From assembly GCA_963575745.1 (NCBI GenBank), contig CAUYUJ010014257.1:82001-146000 (forward strand): a stretch of DNA of 64,000 bases, read 5' to 3'. This DNA is from Prorocentrum cordatum. Taxonomy: Eukaryota > Sar > Dinophyceae > Prorocentrales > Prorocentraceae. The position numbers were made by a program, and so were the translations under genes. The notes beneath the pieces were generated by a model. That model saw only the letters and a list, made by a program, of their open reading frames with translations. It had not been told where the DNA came from and ran no database searches. Positions 51,455-59,418 of the stretch are shown here, piece after piece (positions within the stretch are counted from its first letter, which is position 1; every line of letters begins with the position of its first letter).

Positions 51455-51910
51455 ACAGACGGGAAAGGCGAACACCCAACGATCCCCAAAAATCATTTTC
51501 AAAAAAAAACCGCGATGGTCTTGTCCTTCTACGCATTCGAAAACTCTCCACGCACGCACGGCGAACCCCATCTACCTGGCAGGGCGCGGAATTGAAAAAT
51601 CGGCGTTAGTGACGCCGCAAGGCGAACACTCCAACGACCCCCAAAAAACAATTTTCAAACATTCGCGATGGTATTGTCCTTCTACGCATTCGAAGCTCTC
51701 CACGCACGTACGGCGAACCCCATTTACCTGGCAGGACGCGGAATTGAAAAATCGGCGTTAGTGACGCCGCAAGGCGAACACTCCAACGACCCCCGAAAAA
51801 CAATTTTCAGAAATTCGCGATGGTCTTGTCCTTCTACGCACTCGAAAACTCTCCACGCACGCGCGGCGAGCAGGGCGCGGAATTGAAAAATCGGCGTTAG
51901 TGACGCCCAT
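51455..51910. repeat. Tandem repeat of about 140-152 bp, three units
   Basis: Each unit runs GGCGAACACnCCAACGA, TTTTCA, CGCGATGGTCTTGTCCTTCT, CTCTCCACGCACG, GGAATTGAAAAATCGGCGTT. The last word recurs at about 51589, 51741 and 51880 (152- and 139-bp steps; the last unit lacks a short piece near its end). Confidence 0.85.
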
Positions 51911-52397: not shown

Positions 52398-52489
52398 CAT
52401 GGATGTGCGTTGCACGTGATTGCTTTGAGGTTCTTTATAGGTTGCAGCCCTCCAGCAGCCCCCATATCGCTGCTGGGGCTCAGGCTTTC
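52398..52489 (+). repeat. Split direct repeat A1 (left end)
   Basis: 92 bp from CATGG through CTTTC, including TGCGTTGCACGTGATTGC and CATATCGCTGCTGGGGCTCA. Repeated as A2 at 59165-59256. Confidence 0.9.
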
Positions 52490-52916
52490 AGCGGGTATGC
52501 GAGCCTACCCGACCAGCGCGGTAGGCGGCGCCGTGGCCACGTTCCTGGCAGGGTTTTTGGCGCACGACGTGCTGGGGCCCGCGCTGGTGCACGAGGCGGG
52601 CGGCCTACCACCGCGCAGCGGGCCAGGCCACGAGCTGGAAGACAGCTCGACCAGCAGCACCTCTACGAGCACCAGCGCCGCGCTGGCTTGCTTGTGCCCG
52701 GCGCCGCCGGCGCCGAAGGAGCCCGAGCCGTCGCCGCTACGAGTGGCGGGCACGGGGCTCGATTCGACCGTGGAGGTGCCGCTTGCCGTGGCGCTGGGTG
52801 TCGGGGCGCTGGTGACGCTGGCCGCCGCAGCTCGCTGCTGGAGCCGAGTGGAGGACCAGGCCTTAGCACGGAAGGTGCTCGAGCCGATAGGTGAATCACG
52901 GATCCAGTTGGCCTAG
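52410..52916 (+). CDS. First frame of the YR retrotransposon, unknown
   Basis: 168 codons starting inside A1. Middle part is Ser/Thr/Pro-rich (STSSTSTSTS), with two hydrophobic segments: VGGAVATFLAGFLAHDVL (about 37-54) and VPLAVALGVGALVTLAAAA (about 123-141), which could be membrane-spanning. No family recognised. Position suggests an accessory or leader protein of the element. Confidence 0.4.
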   Translation: MHVIALRFFIGCSPPAAPISLLGLRLSAGMRAYPTSAVGGAVATFLAGFLAHDVLGPALVHEAGGLPPRSGPGHELEDSSTSSTSTSTSAALACLCPAPPAPKEPEPSPLRVAGTGLDSTVEVPLAVALGVGALVTLAAAARCWSRVEDQALARKVLEPIGESRIQLA

Positions 52917-52921
52917 TCCCA

Positions 52922-53557
52922 GTGATGATGGCTGACAACAGTTGCCCTGGGCTCAGGGTGCTAGTGACGTACAGTGACGACCCGGGCTGGACGCGCGAAC
53001 GAGTGCTACTGTGGCCGCGCAATGAGGCTCGCACAAGCTGGCAGATTTACACGCCTGGCAACGAGTTATATGCTGAGGACTTCGGAGACTACGCCTCGCT
53101 CATCCCCATCACGGGGCGGAGGCGTTACCCACCGGGCGTCAGGAACGTGGTTGCGTTCAACAGGAGCCTGCAGGCAGCCGAGCTGGTCTCGCTCATCAGG
53201 CGCGGTCGAGGAGAGGCCGTCCTCGAGCACGGACCGCTAGCGAACGGCTGGTGGGCCGGCTCGGGGCAGGACTGGCTCGGAGGCAGGTTGGACATCCCCG
53301 CGCCGACGGCTGTGGAGGTGCCTCGCGCGCGGCGTCGCTTGCACAGGAAGGGCGCGGAGGTCCAGGCCGATCTTCCTGTGCTCGGTGACGGGAGCCCCCT
53401 CCCCCGCCGCCGCCTTCGGAGAGGCCGCCAGGGTCGTGGGTTCGCTGCTCCTTCGAGGACAGCGATTTCGGACAGATGGTGCCCTTCTCAGCTGCTGCCA
53501 TCCTGCGAGGCCGCTACGGGCTCGACAAGGATGAGATGGGTGAGCGGCGCCCCATAG
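52922..53557 (+). CDS. Gag-like N-terminal frame of the YR retrotransposon
   Basis: Folded-looking sequence to about residue 145 (LRVLVTYSDDPGWTRERVLLWP, ELYAEDFGDYASLIPITGRRRYPPGVRNVVAF, AAELVSLIRRGRGEAVLEHG), then Arg-rich sequence that is probably out of frame. The protein appears to continue in the overlapping frame at 53476 (MVPFSAAAILRGRYGL) after a shift near 53400-53470. It starts 3 nt after the previous stop. Unassigned; gag by position. Confidence 0.45.
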   Translation: MMMADNSCPGLRVLVTYSDDPGWTRERVLLWPRNEARTSWQIYTPGNELYAEDFGDYASLIPITGRRRYPPGVRNVVAFNRSLQAAELVSLIRRGRGEAVLEHGPLANGWWAGSGQDWLGGRLDIPAPTAVEVPRARRRLHRKGAEVQADLPVLGDGSPLPRRRLRRGRQGRGFAAPSRTAISDRWCPSQLLPSCEAATGSTRMRWVSGAP

Positions 53558-54528
53558 AGTACGTGCTGGACGATCAGGCCGACAGCTGGCGAGATGACAA
53601 GTTGGTGGCGGCGGATCGGCAGCGACCACCACGAAGCGCCCTTGACGATCGGCTCTTCGGCAACGGCGGGGGCGGTGCCGCCTCGCCCCCTGGGGGGCCC
53701 ACGGTTGCGGCTGTCGCGGCGGGCACTGGCGAAGAGCAGGCCGAAGATCTGCGCGCGTGCTGGATCGACGTCGACGAGACAGGTTCGAGGTTCAAGGAGG
53801 GGCGCAAGGTAGTGCAGGAGAGTATGCAGGAGGTGTTCTCTGACTCGAGCCTGCGCGGGCCGCCTGCCTGCCTGGAGGTGTGCCGCAAGATGTATCGGCA
53901 CGGCGGCGCGCCCAAGATCTGGTTCCAGGAGTGGTGCGAGGAGACAGGGATCTCTCGACGGGATCGTGCTTACCACGAGGTGCAGACGCTCATCGAGCGC
54001 CTGTGCCTCGCGGGCACCTATGACCAGGTGAACGTGGGAGCTCTGGCATCGCTGGTGGTGATCGCCCGCCGGCTGCTGCAGTGCACGGAGGCATGCGCGC
54101 ACGGGGCGGACCACGCGAACTGGGCGGCGGCGAAGCACCTGGCGGGGACGACGAATCCTCTGGACCTGGTGCCCGAGGCGCTGCGGAGCTACGCCGGCCG
54201 CCTGAGCAAGGAGGAGCACGAGCTGGGGGCGCTGCGGGCGCGGGCAAAGACGCCAGCGGCCTTCTCGGCTGAGGGCGGTCGCGGCGCTGCGGCTGCCGCG
54301 GTGGGCGCTGGCGGCTCGCCGATCGGAGGCGGCGCTGGAGGTGGCGGGGCTGGGGGCGGTGCCGATGCAGGCCGTGGCCGTGGCCGCGGCCGAGGCCGAG
54401 GCGGGCGGGGTCGAGGCCCCCGCCCGCCGTGCTCATGGCGTCCTTGGCGGAGGGGGGCGGGCGCCCGACCGCTCCCTGCAGATCGAAGGGCTCCAGAGGG
54501 CTACGCGGCGCTTCCTTCTTGCCGTTGA
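53476..54528 (+). CDS. Gag-like protein of the YR retrotransposon
   Basis: 350 codons. Residues about 90-260 are helical (CWIDVDETGSRFKEGRKVVQESM, CLEVCRKMYRHGGAPKIWFQEW, HEVQTLIERLCLAGTYDQVNVGALASLVVIARRLLQ), followed by a Gly/Ala linker and an RG-rich box (RGRGRGRGRGGRGRG, about 303-317) that would bind RNA. It overlaps the RT frame by 100 bp, the usual gag-pol arrangement. The capsid-like helical part plus RG box fits gag; no zinc knuckle. Confidence 0.5.
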   Translation: MVPFSAAAILRGRYGLDKDEMGERRPIEYVLDDQADSWRDDKLVAADRQRPPRSALDDRLFGNGGGGAASPPGGPTVAAVAAGTGEEQAEDLRACWIDVDETGSRFKEGRKVVQESMQEVFSDSSLRGPPACLEVCRKMYRHGGAPKIWFQEWCEETGISRRDRAYHEVQTLIERLCLAGTYDQVNVGALASLVVIARRLLQCTEACAHGADHANWAAAKHLAGTTNPLDLVPEALRSYAGRLSKEEHELGALRARAKTPAAFSAEGGRGAAAAAVGAGGSPIGGGAGGGGAGGGADAGRGRGRGRGRGGRGRGPRPPCSWRPWRRGAGARPLPADRRAPEGYAALPSCR

Positions 54529-57056
54529 CCCCCCTGAGCGGGTTGCCTCCCGAGTGGTGCGAGGGGCTCAGCGCGGCGCAGCGCCGTCGCTGGCTTCGGG
54601 GCGGCAGCGCTGCTTGCGAAAGCTTGATTTACTTGCATGGGGGCATCCACCGAGGCGATCGGGCACCAGCGAGCCTGACAAGCCATATGAAGATGGATGC
54701 CATTTCGGCGGACGTGCAGCAGCGCGTTTTCTCGGCGGCTCGCCGGTGGATAGACGTTGACAGCGCCGTCAGTGAGGAGGGGGCCCTTGCCAGGCTTCTC
54801 AAGGGCAAGGCGGGGTATGCCCCCCTTGGCTCGACCAGCATGGGCTCCTACGAGTACTCGCGGGTGAGCTTGCCAGATAGTGTCGTCGACGCGCCGCCCC
54901 TGGCCGCCATGCCCCCCGCGCAGGCGCAGCAATACCTCGAGGAGTTTGCTTCCAGGGTGCTGCCGCCGCCTCAGGAGGCAGCACTAATGCGAGAACTTGA
55001 TGGGCTTCCTGGTTGTCACGCCGACCCTCTGCTGCTGCAACGGCCGCGGAGCTATGGGAAGTTCGTGCGGCGAGCGCTTTCGATAGGCTTAGTCACTTTG
55101 ACACAGAGGCCTAAGAGCGTATTTGGATTATTCTTAGTGAAGAAGAGGGATGGGGCTCGTCTTCGCCTCATCGTCGACTGCAGGCGGAGCAACGCCTTGT
55201 TCCGCCCTTCTCCCGGGGTCGACTTGTTGTCGGGCGAGGGGCTCGGCCGCGTAGAGATGCCCGTCATGGAGGACTCCAGCTTTGCCGGGCTCGGCGCGGT
55301 GCTTGGCGTGGGCGACGTGGCCGACTGTTTCCACAGGATGAAGCTGCAGGGCGACATCAGGCACTACTTCTGCTGGCCGCCACTGGATGCTGCTCTGGCT
55401 GGAGAGACATTGGTCGAAGGGCGCCCTGTGCGCGCCGGCGAGCAGGTTTGGCCGATGAGCCAGAGCCTGCCAATGGGCTTTCCGTGGTCCCTGTACTTCG
55501 CCCAGGCCGCCAACCAGCGCAGGCTCGACCGACAGCCGTCGTTGGCGGGCAGCCTGCGTTTGAGCGATCGCGGGCCGCCGCATGTCCTTGGACGAGGTAC
55601 CGTGGGGTCGGAACTGGGCCACTACATGTACGTCGACAATGCAGGCGTGATCGGGTTCGACGCAGCGCGTGTGACCTGCGCGCTGCAGGAGGCCCAGCGC
55701 GACTTCGATGGGGATCATCTGAAGTTCCACGTGGTGGAGGTGATGCCTGAGGGAGGTCGCACCCTGGGCTGCTATCTCGACGGCAGGCACCGTGCGACCC
55801 GCCCTACTGACGAGAGGTTCGCCATGGTGCGGAAGGGGTTGAGGTGCTTGCTGAGGAGGCGCAAGGTTGCCGGCTGGCAGCTGGAGATGGTGCTGGGCCA
55901 CATGACCTTCATGGCCCTGGTTCGCCGCGATGTGTTGTCCATCTTCCACTCGGTCTACGCCTTTGTGGCGCAGAACTACCATGCCTTCTCCGAGCTGTGG
56001 CCCACCGTGCGTGAGGAGTTGAACTGCCTGGGCATCATGTTGCTGCTGGAGTCGACCTGGACCAGGCCGTGGATGCCAGTGGTCTACTCCTCCGACGCCA
56101 GCCTGTACGGCCACGGGGTGGCGGAGGCCTGCTTCGGGACCGAGACGGTGGCAAAGATCGGCCGCGTATCGGAGCTGGCGCGGTGGCGGCTGGGAGCTGG
56201 GCTAGCGAGACAGCATGCCTTCGAGTGCGCTGGTTTTCTTGGACAGCGAGACCGGCGAGGTCGTCCGAGATGAGGCGGGGGCCCCGAAGCGGCTGGACGC
56301 CGAGCTCCAGCGCGCGCTGGCCAGAGACGCTGGGAGCTGGACCCGAGCTTCCCCGAGGTGCCCAGCTGGCTCCTGCATGACTCGCATTGGGCCACGGTCA
56401 TGGCCGACCGCTGGGCCTTCGCCGATGATATCCTCAGACTTGAGGCACGAGCGTTGGTGAAGGCTGCAGCTCGTGCCGCGCAGTGTCAGCCTGTAAAAAA
56501 ATGCCGCACCCTTTTGTTAGGAGATAATCTCGCTGTCGTGTTGTGTTTTTGCAGGTTCAGGTCCAGGGATTTACGGCTTCTAATTCAGGTCCGCCGCTTC
56601 GCTGCCCTGTGCCTTGCTAGAGACATCAAGTTTGTTGTTCGTTGGGTTCCGTCTGAGTTCAAGTCTGGCGACGAGGGAAGTCGAATATTCGTTCCTGCTT
56701 ATGATGCACAAAAGACCCTCGTTGCCCATCTTGGCTCAAACTCGTTGCCACCCCAGGTTCCTGCGGACCCTGTCGATGCTTCCGCAGCGGAGGCCCGTGG
56801 CGGCAGAGAGCAGTCGGCGGCGGACGCTGAGCCGCACTGCGGCGCCGACGCCAGCCGCCCCGCTCGAGGCAGGCCGCAGGCGCACGCGGGCGCTGAGCAG
56901 CCCTGGTCGCCGGCTGGATTCAGGAGGGCCGCCGCCAGCGCAGAGGTCCCGCACGCTGGACCAGAGGCGCGGGCTGGCCGCGAGGCTGGTGCTGGAGGGC
57001 GCCGCCCGACCGCCGCTGCAGAGCTCAGTGGAAGCTTGCTTGCAGCTGAGCCCTAG
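54429..57056 (+). CDS. Reverse transcriptase and RNase H of the YR retrotransposon
   Basis: The frame to 56273 contains RT blocks FLVKKRDGARLRLIVDCRRSN, GVGDVADCFHRMKL (catalytic Asp about 298), SQSLPMGFPWSLYFAQ, and YMYVDNAGVIG (about 399-409), where the usual YxDD is YVDN. RNase H follows: VVYSSDASLYGHGV (first Asp), then after a local double shift (56230-56335) the same frame resumes with FPEVPSWLLHDSHW, CRTLLLGDNLAVVL and VVRWVPSEFKSGDEGSR. The RT copies element RNA into cDNA. YVDN keeps the first Asp; whether it is active is unclear. The first 60 residues overlap gag. The two compensating shifts may be assembly errors. Confidence 0.75.
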
Positions 57057-58245
57057 CGGACCACACCTGGCCGACCAGGCCGTCGCCGGCCACGGGGTTG
57101 CCGAGGTCGCGGCGGAGAGCGAGAGCATCGAGAGCAGCGACGTCGAGGAGCCGCCGGCTGCCGCGCGCTCCCGCAGGCGTCTGGAGACGCGCGGGGAGGC
57201 TCGGGTCAGGAAGGCGATCGAGGTGCTGGAGACCACAGAGGCGGGCAAGGGCGACGCGAAGCTGTGCATCAGCTACCTCGAGAAGAGGACGGTGGGCGCA
57301 GGCGCCCTGGAGACCTACCGCCAGTGCGTGCTCGCATTCTGCGTCTGGGCCCGCTGCTGCCTCACAGCCCTGCCCGAGCTCAAGGAGCTGGACGGCCAGC
57401 TGGTCGAATATATGAACGAAGAGTTTTTGAAGGGCGTCAAGGCCTTGCGGGGCGAGAAGCTGCTCGCTGGGCTGATGTTCTTCCACCCGGACTTCGGCCG
57501 CCTGGGCGGTTTGCATCTCCCGAGGTCTTTGCGCTGCCTGAAAGGGTGGAAGAAGCTTTCGCCATCTCGATCTCGGAAGCCCTTGGTGTTCGCGATCTGG
57601 GCGGCGCTGGCAGTGGAGCTCTGCCGCCTGGGGGCGCCTCTGGTAGGCGCAATGGTGCTAATCATGGTGGAGTGCTACCTTCGGCCGGGGGAGATGCTGA
57701 GCCTCACGAGCGATTCATTTCTGGCACCGGCGGAGCATGCAGTACAGATCTGGGTCGTATGGCTTTTTCCAGAAGCTGGGGTGGCTCGGAGCAAGGTGGG
57801 GTCAGCAGACGATACCATTCCTTGCGACTCAGGACGGTGCCCGTGGATGTGTCACATCTTCAAAGCTCTGAAGGACCGCCAGTCATCCCGGCCCCTCCTG
57901 GATTTGAGCTACCCGCAGTTCCTGTGCCTCTTCCGGAGAGCGGCCACGAACATCGGAGTCGACGTCGTCCCATACCAAGGCCGTCACAGCGGAGCATCGC
58001 TGGATCGGGCCACGGGGCGACGCTTTCTGGAAGAGGTTCAGAAAAGAGGGCGATGGGCTGCGATGAGTTCGGTGAAAAGATACGAAAAGTCAGGACGACT
58101 GAACGAGAGCTGGGAGAAGCTGAGCGACGCCTCCAAGGCGCACTGCGCTGCAGCGGCCAACCTCCTGCAAGAGGTATTGCTGCTGGGGCGCCCCGCGCTT
58201 GCGCCGCCGTTCGGCGGCCGAGAGGGCTGTCGCGGGCTCCGCTGA
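56614..58245 (+). CDS. Tyrosine recombinase of the YR retrotransposon
   Basis: The folded part starts near residue 190 (VRKAIEVLETTEAGKGDAKL, YLEKRTVGAGALETYRQCV, the SAM-like DNA-binding domain), earlier residues being out of frame with RNase H. Catalytic residues: R357 in ECYLRPGEMLSL, R457-H458 in PYQGRHSGASLD, W481 in RGRW and Y490 in VKRYEKSGR. This matches the R...HxxR/RH...H/W...Y set of tyrosine recombinases and would integrate the circular cDNA. It lies one frame from RT-RNase H and one from the methyltransferase that follows. Confidence 0.8.
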   Translation: MLETSSLLFVGFRLSSSLATREVEYSFLLMMHKRPSLPILAQTRCHPRFLRTLSMLPQRRPVAAESSRRRTLSRTAAPTPAAPLEAGRRRTRALSSPGRRLDSGGPPPAQRSRTLDQRRGLAARLVLEGAARPPLQSSVEACLQLSPSGPHLADQAVAGHGVAEVAAESESIESSDVEEPPAAARSRRRLETRGEARVRKAIEVLETTEAGKGDAKLCISYLEKRTVGAGALETYRQCVLAFCVWARCCLTALPELKELDGQLVEYMNEEFLKGVKALRGEKLLAGLMFFHPDFGRLGGLHLPRSLRCLKGWKKLSPSRSRKPLVFAIWAALAVELCRLGAPLVGAMVLIMVECYLRPGEMLSLTSDSFLAPAEHAVQIWVVWLFPEAGVARSKVGSADDTIPCDSGRCPWMCHIFKALKDRQSSRPLLDLSYPQFLCLFRRAATNIGVDVVPYQGRHSGASLDRATGRRFLEEVQKRGRWAAMSSVKRYEKSGRLNESWEKLSDASKAHCAAAANLLQEVLLLGRPALAPPFGGREGCRGLR

Positions 58246-58964
58246 GCTCGCAGCTGGCCGCGGCTTCCGCACCGTATCAGCTGGATCTTTTTTCTGGTGG
58301 AGGCGGGATTGGAGGCTTCGCCAAGCGACTTGGTTTCAATTCAGTGTCTTTGGACCTGCGAAATGGGGGGGACCAGGATGTGTGCAGCGCCAATAATCTA
58401 GATGCGATTCTCGCCCACTTTAAGGCCGGGCTCATCAGAGCAGTTACGCTGGCACCTCCCTGTTCTTCTTTCCCTCTTGCTCGTAACAGGTATCCTGTCA
58501 GAAGTGCGCAATGCCCAGAGGGTCTGCCATCCCTGCGTCCAAACGACCAGACCGCAGTCAGCATAGGTAACCTCTGTAAGCGTGTGGCCGTGTACATCGT
58601 TCGGTTGTGCCATGTCTCCGGAGTCCCGTTCGCGTTGGAGAACCCTCAGACCTCTTACATGTGGCGATGCCAAGATATCGTGAAGTATGTTTTGAGCCGT
58701 AGCCGTACTCTGGATTTGCACCAGTGCGCCGTCGGATCCAGGTGGCGAAAGGCGACCAAGCTGGCCCTGGGATGTGTCACGGAGGCAGGGGACTTCGTCC
58801 TTGCCTACCCGGGAGCCGTACGTTGCCGAGGCAAACACGGATACTGTTCCTTCAGGCCTGGTCATAAGCACGTCGTCCTAGAGGGAAAGGCTATGACCTT
58901 GAGAGCCGCTGCGTACCCTTCTCGCTTCGCTCGGTGGCTGTGCACTGTCTTGCTCGACCTGTGA
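58246..58964 (+). CDS. C5-type methyltransferase domain of the YR retrotransposon
   Basis: In the frame one base behind the recombinase, open throughout the overlap. Motif I YQLDLFSGGGGIGGFA (about 58275-58320), motif II VSLDL, motif IV TLAPPCSSFPLARN (Pro-Pro-Cys, candidate nucleophile Cys), motif VI PFALENPQTSYMW (Glu-Asn-Pro), then a short region with Cys and WRKATKLALG, and a final AAYPSRFARWL. Length (about 235 aa) suggests a compact enzyme with a small target-recognition part. It ends 120 bp before B1. Expression would need a -1 shift from the recombinase or internal initiation. It is distinct in sequence from the enzyme at 3203-4816. Substrate is unknown. Confidence 0.7.
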
Positions 58965-59083
58965 ACAAAGGTGATCCGTATGTGGCAGTAATATTTTTCA
59001 CATACTGAGGTTGACGCCTTCCCCAACGCCGGTGAAGGGTCTATACCGCTACGCTGAGAACTTCGGCTTTGCGAATATGTTGG

Positions 59084-59167
59084 AGTGGTTTCGCCGTTTG
59101 CACGACTCGATTATCTGGTCGCGACCATATGGTAACAGGGTTCACCACTGAAAAGACGTCAGAGCAT
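59084..59167 (+). repeat. Split direct repeat B1
   Basis: 84 bp from AGTGGTTTCGCCGTTTGCAC to CAGAGCAT, repeated as B2 at 59335-59418. It directly abuts A2, sharing CAT. Confidence 0.9.
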
Positions 59168-59256
59168 GGTTATGCGTTGCACGTGATTGCTTTGAGGTTC
59201 TTTATATGTTGCAGCCCTCCAGCAGCCCCCATATCGCTGCTGGGGCTCAAGCTTTC
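59165..59256 (+). repeat. Split direct repeat A2
   Basis: 92 bp matching A1 at 52398-52489 with about four differences. Followed by an 78-bp spacer with CCCTATATAGCGCGCG, a possible core promoter-like TATA stretch. Confidence 0.9.
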
Positions 59257-59334
59257 CCACCCTCAGCCACCCTGGACCTGCCCTATATAGCGCGCGCCCC
59301 TTTTTAACCTTCTTCACTCCCTCCTCTCGTACAG

Positions 59335-59418
59335 AGTGGTTTCGCCGTTTGCACGACTCGATAACCTGGTCGCGACCATATGGTATCAGAGTTCACCACT
59401 GAAAATACGTCAGAGCAT
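59335..59418 (+). repeat. Split direct repeat B2 (right end)
   Basis: 84 bp matching B1 at 59084-59167 with about five differences. Marks the right end of the element. Confidence 0.9.

Follow-up and report, generated by a model that had tools for sequence, protein, structure and literature searches.

Retrotransposons that combine a C5 cytosine methyltransferase with A-B-A-B repeats have already been published in the form of SymbioDIRS-Dnmt3, a DIRS-type retrotransposon of dinoflagellates with a Dnmt3-class C5 enzyme (de Mendoza et al. 2018, PMC5890265; for this and all other cited papers our statements refer to parts of their text). The subject of the present analysis is a tyrosine-recombinase (YR) retrotransposon at positions 52398..59418 of a 64,000-nucleotide stretch of DNA from Prorocentrum cordatum (contig CAUYUJ010014257.1), the whole of which we call the window. 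The two elements are alike in the A-coding-B-A-B arrangement of their repeats, in having the YR in an open reading frame (ORF) of its own and a C5 methyltransferase in the reverse transcriptase (RT) ORF, and in a divergent RT that is poorly matched by Pfam (PMC5890265). De novo CG methylation has been demonstrated for retrotransposon enzymes, and self-methylation has already been proposed for SymbioDIRS-Dnmt3 (PMC5890265). However, the enzyme of SymbioDIRS-Dnmt3 is of the Dnmt3 class and was sought with PF00145, which none of 30 members of the methyltransferase-like domain (MT) described here reach, and although two domain orders are given for that element, a YR wholly nested between RNase H (RH) and the methyltransferase is not described in the text portion of PMC5890265. 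KnitGypsy-Dnmt3 and SymbioLINE-Dnmt are also retrotransposons carrying C5 enzymes, but belong to the Gypsy and LINE classes (PMC5890265).

In DIRS1-like elements, pol likewise consists of RT, RH and a methyltransferase, and half of 28 annotated elements have a long ORF overlap (PMC3266345). However, their methyltransferase is Dam-like (PMC5890265), their termini are inverted repeats with internal complementary regions, and the catalytic domain of their YR reportedly lies in the non-overlapping 3' end (PMC3266345), whereas here all of the YR is overlapped. Ngaro elements share the split direct repeats A1-ORFs-B1-A2-B2 as well as RT, RH and YR (PMC8547959, PMC3266345, PMC6681497), but are reported without a methyltransferase and usually without ORF overlap (PMC3266345), both of which are present here, and their YR has an HxxR motif (PMC8547959) whose histidine is replaced in our element. 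VIPER is also reported to lack a methyltransferase and usually ORF overlaps (PMC3266345). PAT and VIPER have the same A1-B1-A2-B2 pattern, and reverse-transcription models for Ngaro and PAT are named in the same source (PMC6681497); PAT-like elements are characterised by split direct repeats, which the window element also has, and by an RT/RH that is sister to that of DIRS1-like elements. The Ngaro label of the initial annotation is thus borne out by the repeat pattern, which is however common to PAT and VIPER, but not by the methyltransferase, the ORF overlap and the replaced histidine. In YR elements, extensive overlap between the YR ORF and that of RT/RH is frequent (PMC6681497), and therefore overlap as such is already known. 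A literature search, which covered main texts and few subscription papers, turned up no account of a YR that is nested in full, nor one of the MT family of the window.

The window element is a decayed member of a multicopy family of dinoflagellate retrotransposons of the DIRS order, in which RT and RH are combined with a YR instead of a DDE integrase and which has split direct repeats (A1-genes-B1-A2-B2, Table 1). The repeats were found where they had been annotated, with lengths of 92 nucleotides for A and 85 instead of 84 for B, and an RT with a YVDN box, RH, YR, and a frame with LDLFSGGGGIG, PPC and ENP motifs are all present as well. The trinucleotide CAT is found at three sites, the start of A1, the B1/A2 junction and the end of B2. 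A1 and A2 are 96% identical and B1 and B2 94%, and in addition to these differences of 4-6% the copy has lost its RT frame at about 56230-56340 and has acquired a stop at 57054-57056.

In this group of elements the RT-RH frame continues through the YR gene into the MT. In the families examined, if indels in C13322 and C221 are set aside, the MT shares the frame of RH while the YR is shifted by +1 from it, and four lineages have RT, RH and MT in one open frame of 1536 (C15573), 1651 (L055), 1662 (L056) and 1472 (L057) amino acids, within which the nested YR is open for 503, 536, 460 and 489 amino acids, respectively. The last few YR codons of these four lie beyond or beside the start of the MT. 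Describing the methyltransferase frame as overlapping was therefore correct in that it is in the -1 frame relative to the YR, but it is also the frame of RT and RH, which is more than a mere overlap. A chance open frame across the YR was rejected by shuffling the YR codons synonymously and counting the stops in the pol frame: the eight pooled lineages together contain 2 such stops while 56.7 were expected, whereas the third frame contains 117 against an expected 107.4. Eighteen non-overlapped control stretches contained 203 stops compared to 260.5 expected, and correcting for this ratio of 0.78 still leaves an expectation of 44.2 in the pol frame (Poisson P ~6e-17, binomial share test 3e-15, for lineages that share ancestry). 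The four lineages that were not picked for openness (window, L022, L058 and L059) account for 2 stops against 31.5 expected. Among 15 closely related loci, of which only L022 entered the pool, 12 have no stop, and L010, L022 and L027 have one each.

Codon positions 1, 2 and 3 differ by 0.076, 0.091 and 0.110 in the YR and by 0.068, 0.057 and 0.187 in the MT among eight copies of the window family. Third-position change is thus held down and second-position change raised in the YR, as would be expected if a second frame were read, although no non-overlapped YR was compared. An ATG in the YR frame is present within about 90 nucleotides of the end of the RH match in 7/7 families, and in the window copy the start codon is probably the ATG at 56701 or that at 56776. 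A spliced-leader remnant ahead of the YR was considered and dropped because of about six mismatches, as judged by eye. Apart from this, a spliced-leader 21-mer, which we presume to be that of dinoflagellates, has 14,218 exact copies in the genome and its reversed control none; these copies are perhaps spliced-leader genes together with relicts in retroposed cDNAs.

Based on these frames we propose, with a probability of roughly 0.6, that RT, RH, linker and MT would be translated as a single polyprotein, while the YR would be a separate product starting at its own ATG just behind RH. The A and B repeats would serve to circularise the cDNA as in the models for Ngaro and PAT, the details of which are general background, and the YR would insert the circular cDNA at a short core. 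The tethered MT would methylate cytosines of the new cDNA, or act on the host copy, so that in a methylated genome the element might pass for DNA of the host. There is about an even chance that such elements form a separate superfamily of YR retrotransposons, distinguished by a YR that is dual-coded inside pol over its whole length, with its catalytic domain, and by a compact C5 MT that is too divergent for existing profiles, has a Cys/His-rich stub where a recognition domain would be, and marks the cDNA of the element.

Several observations speak against this proposal. The linker is poorly conserved, with 35% identity in the pol frame against 67% in the YR frame (window compared to C15573). 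C15573, L055, L056 and L057 were picked partly for their long open frames. Some controls are low when taken singly (RT-RH of C15573, P 0.037; RT of L056, 0.0055; MT of L057, 0.019; RT of C13322, 0.025), and because the controls as a whole are below expectation, a part of the stop deficit is general codon-pair bias. The structure model of the RT is poor (mean predicted local distance difference test score, pLDDT, of 46), so that the identity of the RT depends on motifs and on weak Pfam matches (RVT_1 with expectation values, E, of 0.049-0.084 in three relatives, and no match in the RT ORF of the window). In the MT, PPC is replaced by IDC, IEC or TPC in some members, and PF00145, the C5 family of Pfam, matches 0/30 members at E<=1, while Dcm and two phage C5 enzymes as positive controls reached 5.4e-55 or better. 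When the MT was aligned to Dcm and three phage C5 enzymes with hhalign, motif I alone aligned, with a probability of 53%. C15573 starts with CTT instead of CAT at its left end (its other two sites are CAT). Finally, L058 groups with the window in the RT tree (0.999) but with L055 in the MT tree (0.52), and the MT tree also puts L056 into the window group (0.80); both trees are small and weak and cannot test for MT swapping between lineages.

The RT active-site box is YVDN in 5/5 aligned families (window, L032, L055, L056 and L057). The usual box is YxDD, and its second Asp is thus an Asn here. In L059, which is outside this alignment, the box reads YVGD. In the YR, Arg357, Lys394, Arg457, Trp481 and Tyr490 (numbering of the YR ORF) are invariant in five aligned families. 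The three residues Arg357, Arg457 and Tyr490 had been named before; His458, which had been named together with them, is variable. The histidine of the HxxR motif is replaced in 5/5 of these families, which have Y-Q-x-R or C-Q-x-R.

The predicted model of the MT (pLDDT 88) has a C5 cytosine methyltransferase fold, since its best fold matches are C5 cytosine methyltransferases. The nearest folds are DNA enzymes, among them DNMT3A and DNMT3B, and Dnmt2, which is a tRNA enzyme, is also found among the matches. In the MT pieces the catalytic Cys is present in 78/81 (PPC), the Glu in 72/80 (ENP) and the Arg in 74/85; we take these residues to belong to motifs IV, VI and VIII, respectively. Less likely, but still to be reckoned with, is another job for this fold, such as RNA methylation, nucleic-acid binding, or modifying host DNA instead of the cDNA of the element. 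The very short recognition region with its conserved Cys/His set, the missing match to PF00145 and the presence of Dnmt2 among the fold matches would agree with such a job, and a LINE-borne enzyme without de novo DNA methylation in yeast has been suggested to have an RNA target (PMC5890265). However, most MT pieces retain the residues of C5 catalysis (Cys, Glu and Arg), the nearest folds are those of DNA enzymes, and the position of the MT in pol together with the RT suits a cDNA substrate.

No significant methyltransferase family was found by Pfam in the ORFs of the window and the 30 MT members; a Dam family was absent from both lists, and N6_N4_Mtase appeared in 2/30 with a best E of 0.094, which is not significant. 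The search of PDB sequences also gave nothing significant (DNMT2 E 0.79, METTL21D E 0.12), and no relative was found by tblastn against phages and one scan of viral contigs. Relatives that are 45-60% identical are present in metagenomes (P0002-P0005), and a profile search, in which the best 8000 candidates were scored, revealed 19 environmental proteins, one of them labelled with an organism. P0020, an MT piece of 98 amino acids, is labelled Pyramimonas sp. in EukProt; the family may extend to green algae, or the transcriptome may be contaminated with dinoflagellate RNA.

The MT might instead be produced as a YR-MT fusion through -1 frameshifting near the YR stop, as the initial annotation suggested. 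In the families examined the MT indeed occupies the -1 frame of the YR, whose end overlaps the MT frame. From the start of P0001 up to motif I the window copy contains no Met, and the metagenomic protein P0012 joins the C-terminus of the YR and the MT in one frame, which may however reflect an indel. Frameshifting leaves unexplained that hardly any stop interrupts the MT frame across the YR, over about 400-500 codons, and that this frame is continuous with RT and RH in C15573, L055, L056 and L057. In addition, inspection by eye of the alignment of the YR/MT overlap, which was not scanned systematically, revealed no conspicuous conserved slippery heptamer. A frameshift from YR to MT is thus rather improbable and less likely than read-through in the pol frame, and the frame data seem to fit the RT-RH-linker-MT polyprotein better.

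That the MT is a methyltransferase gene of the host which just happens to be located within the window copy is hardly conceivable and without any support, given its presence at the same place in 28/28 repeat ends and 110/112 YR loci; it is these locus counts, and not a phylogeny, that exclude it. The MT is a fixed and selected component of the element and not an accident of one copy, and the YR retrotransposon carries its own methyltransferase, C5-type by fold, as originally annotated. The counts come from the host assembly of 4.13 Gb in 21,875 contigs. Searching with the MT gave at least 142 scored matches from 9830 first-look candidates, and in the 21 loci that are at least 79% alike (L001-L021) the MT is always followed by B1 and A2, and in 20 of them, but not in L021, by a second B. 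Independently of the MT, the DNA of B1-A2-B2 was used to look for other A/B repeat pairs, which yielded 40 scored matches out of 115 candidates, namely 28 repeat ends, all with a second B except C17299, as well as 12 lone A copies. An MT match is present at most 1.5 kb upstream of every repeat end. Eight of the lone A copies are located 6.6-7.5 kb ahead of a repeat end, one 9.4 kb and one 30 kb; two others (C2240:18144 and C468:87622), with no B-A-B end listed on their contigs, are possibly solo repeats or truncated copies. The YR search gave 119 matches in 112 loci (116 of 10,768 candidates scored). A listed MT match follows within 2.5 kb downstream in 82 loci, and of the remaining 30 the MT was found in 2/2 read whole and in 26/28 read as 1.3-kb pieces, in several cases in broken frames or partially (e.g. 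L066, L070, L082). Copies without the methyltransferase, which had been named beforehand as what would contradict the claim, thus make up at most 2 of the 112 scored YR loci: the 1.3-kb pieces downstream of C18544:1232859 and C19203:33698 showed no MT. In C19203 the YR frame is open for 533 amino acids, which makes it a candidate for MT loss. The ratio of nonsynonymous to synonymous divergence (dN/dS) of the MT has a median of 0.21 with a range of 0.09-0.78 (78 pairs of 13 window-family copies, with 8 of the 21 close copies excluded for broken frame or length), indicating that the MT is under purifying selection.

Four further whole and contiguous copies (C16906, C221, C13322 and C15573) all have the order A1-gag-like-RT-RH-YR-MT-B1-A2-B2. 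C221 is without the middle of the RT, C16906 carries roughly 0.8 kb of additional sequence within the RT, and C221 and C13322 contain frame shifts. In C15573 both A1 and A2 (93 nucleotides) and B1 and B2 (106 nucleotides) are 100% identical, and this copy is therefore young; it shows the C5 enzyme in the RT frame and the A-B-A-B repeats together. The order gag-RT-RH-YR-MT is also kept in five more divergent loci (L055-L059), for which our claim covers the gene order and not the terminal repeats. The window and C15573 are 74% identical in RT, 68% in YR and 60% in MT, whereas all other pairs of families share 30-45%, 32-42% and 30-45%, respectively.

Table 1. Features of the YR retrotransposon in the Prorocentrum cordatum window
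Feature	Position	Strand	Evidence
A1 repeat, 5' end of the element, starts with CAT	52398..52489	+	repeat comparison; A1 also 5'-terminal in C16906, C221, C13322 and C15573 (own A)
5' ORF on the gag side, conserved across copies	52410..52916	+	three close copies at 79-95%, C15573 at 39%
gag-like region, ORFs 52922-53557 and 53476-54528	52922..54528	+	ORFs; conservation in other copies
pol frame: reverse transcriptase, YVDN box at 55629-55640	54429..56273	+	motifs, alignment
pol frame: RNase H	56358..57056	+	stop 57054-57056 closes the frame in the window copy
Tyrosine recombinase, +1 relative to the pol frame	56614..58245	+	R357, K394, R457, W481, Y490; PHROG integrase E 3.7e-4
pol-frame linker across the YR gene, stop-free	57057..58256	+	open-frame analysis
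C5-fold methyltransferase domain (MT), in the RT/RH frame	58257..58961	+	alignment, predicted model, fold search
B1 repeat	59083..59167	+	repeat comparison
A2 repeat, CAT overlap with B1	59165..59256	+	repeat comparison
B2 repeat, 3' end of the element, ends with CAT	59334..59418	+	repeat comparison

The gag-like region had no match in the Pfam scan of the window ORFs. Immediately 5' of the element (51541-51907) a unit of 152 nucleotides is present twice head-to-tail (94%), together with a third, partial one. Elsewhere in the window, at about 27,980 and below on the minus strand (frame r2, from 36017 of the reverse complement), the MT profile matches weakly (E 3e-4), either to a remnant or by chance. 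Searches with Rfam at gathering scores and for tRNAs were empty.

If the nested arrangement is true, lineages that are only 30-45% alike in their RT have kept a whole integration enzyme within a linker that belongs to another polyprotein. DIRS elements are known to have an overlap of YR and pol; the catalytic part of their YR, however, is said to lie outside it (PMC3266345). Because the MT family would be missed by surveys based on PF00145, retroelements carrying C5-type enzymes may be more numerous than thought, and the question whether such elements mark their own cDNA may reach further as well. Both the nested reading and self-marking can be tested on young copies whose repeats are identical.

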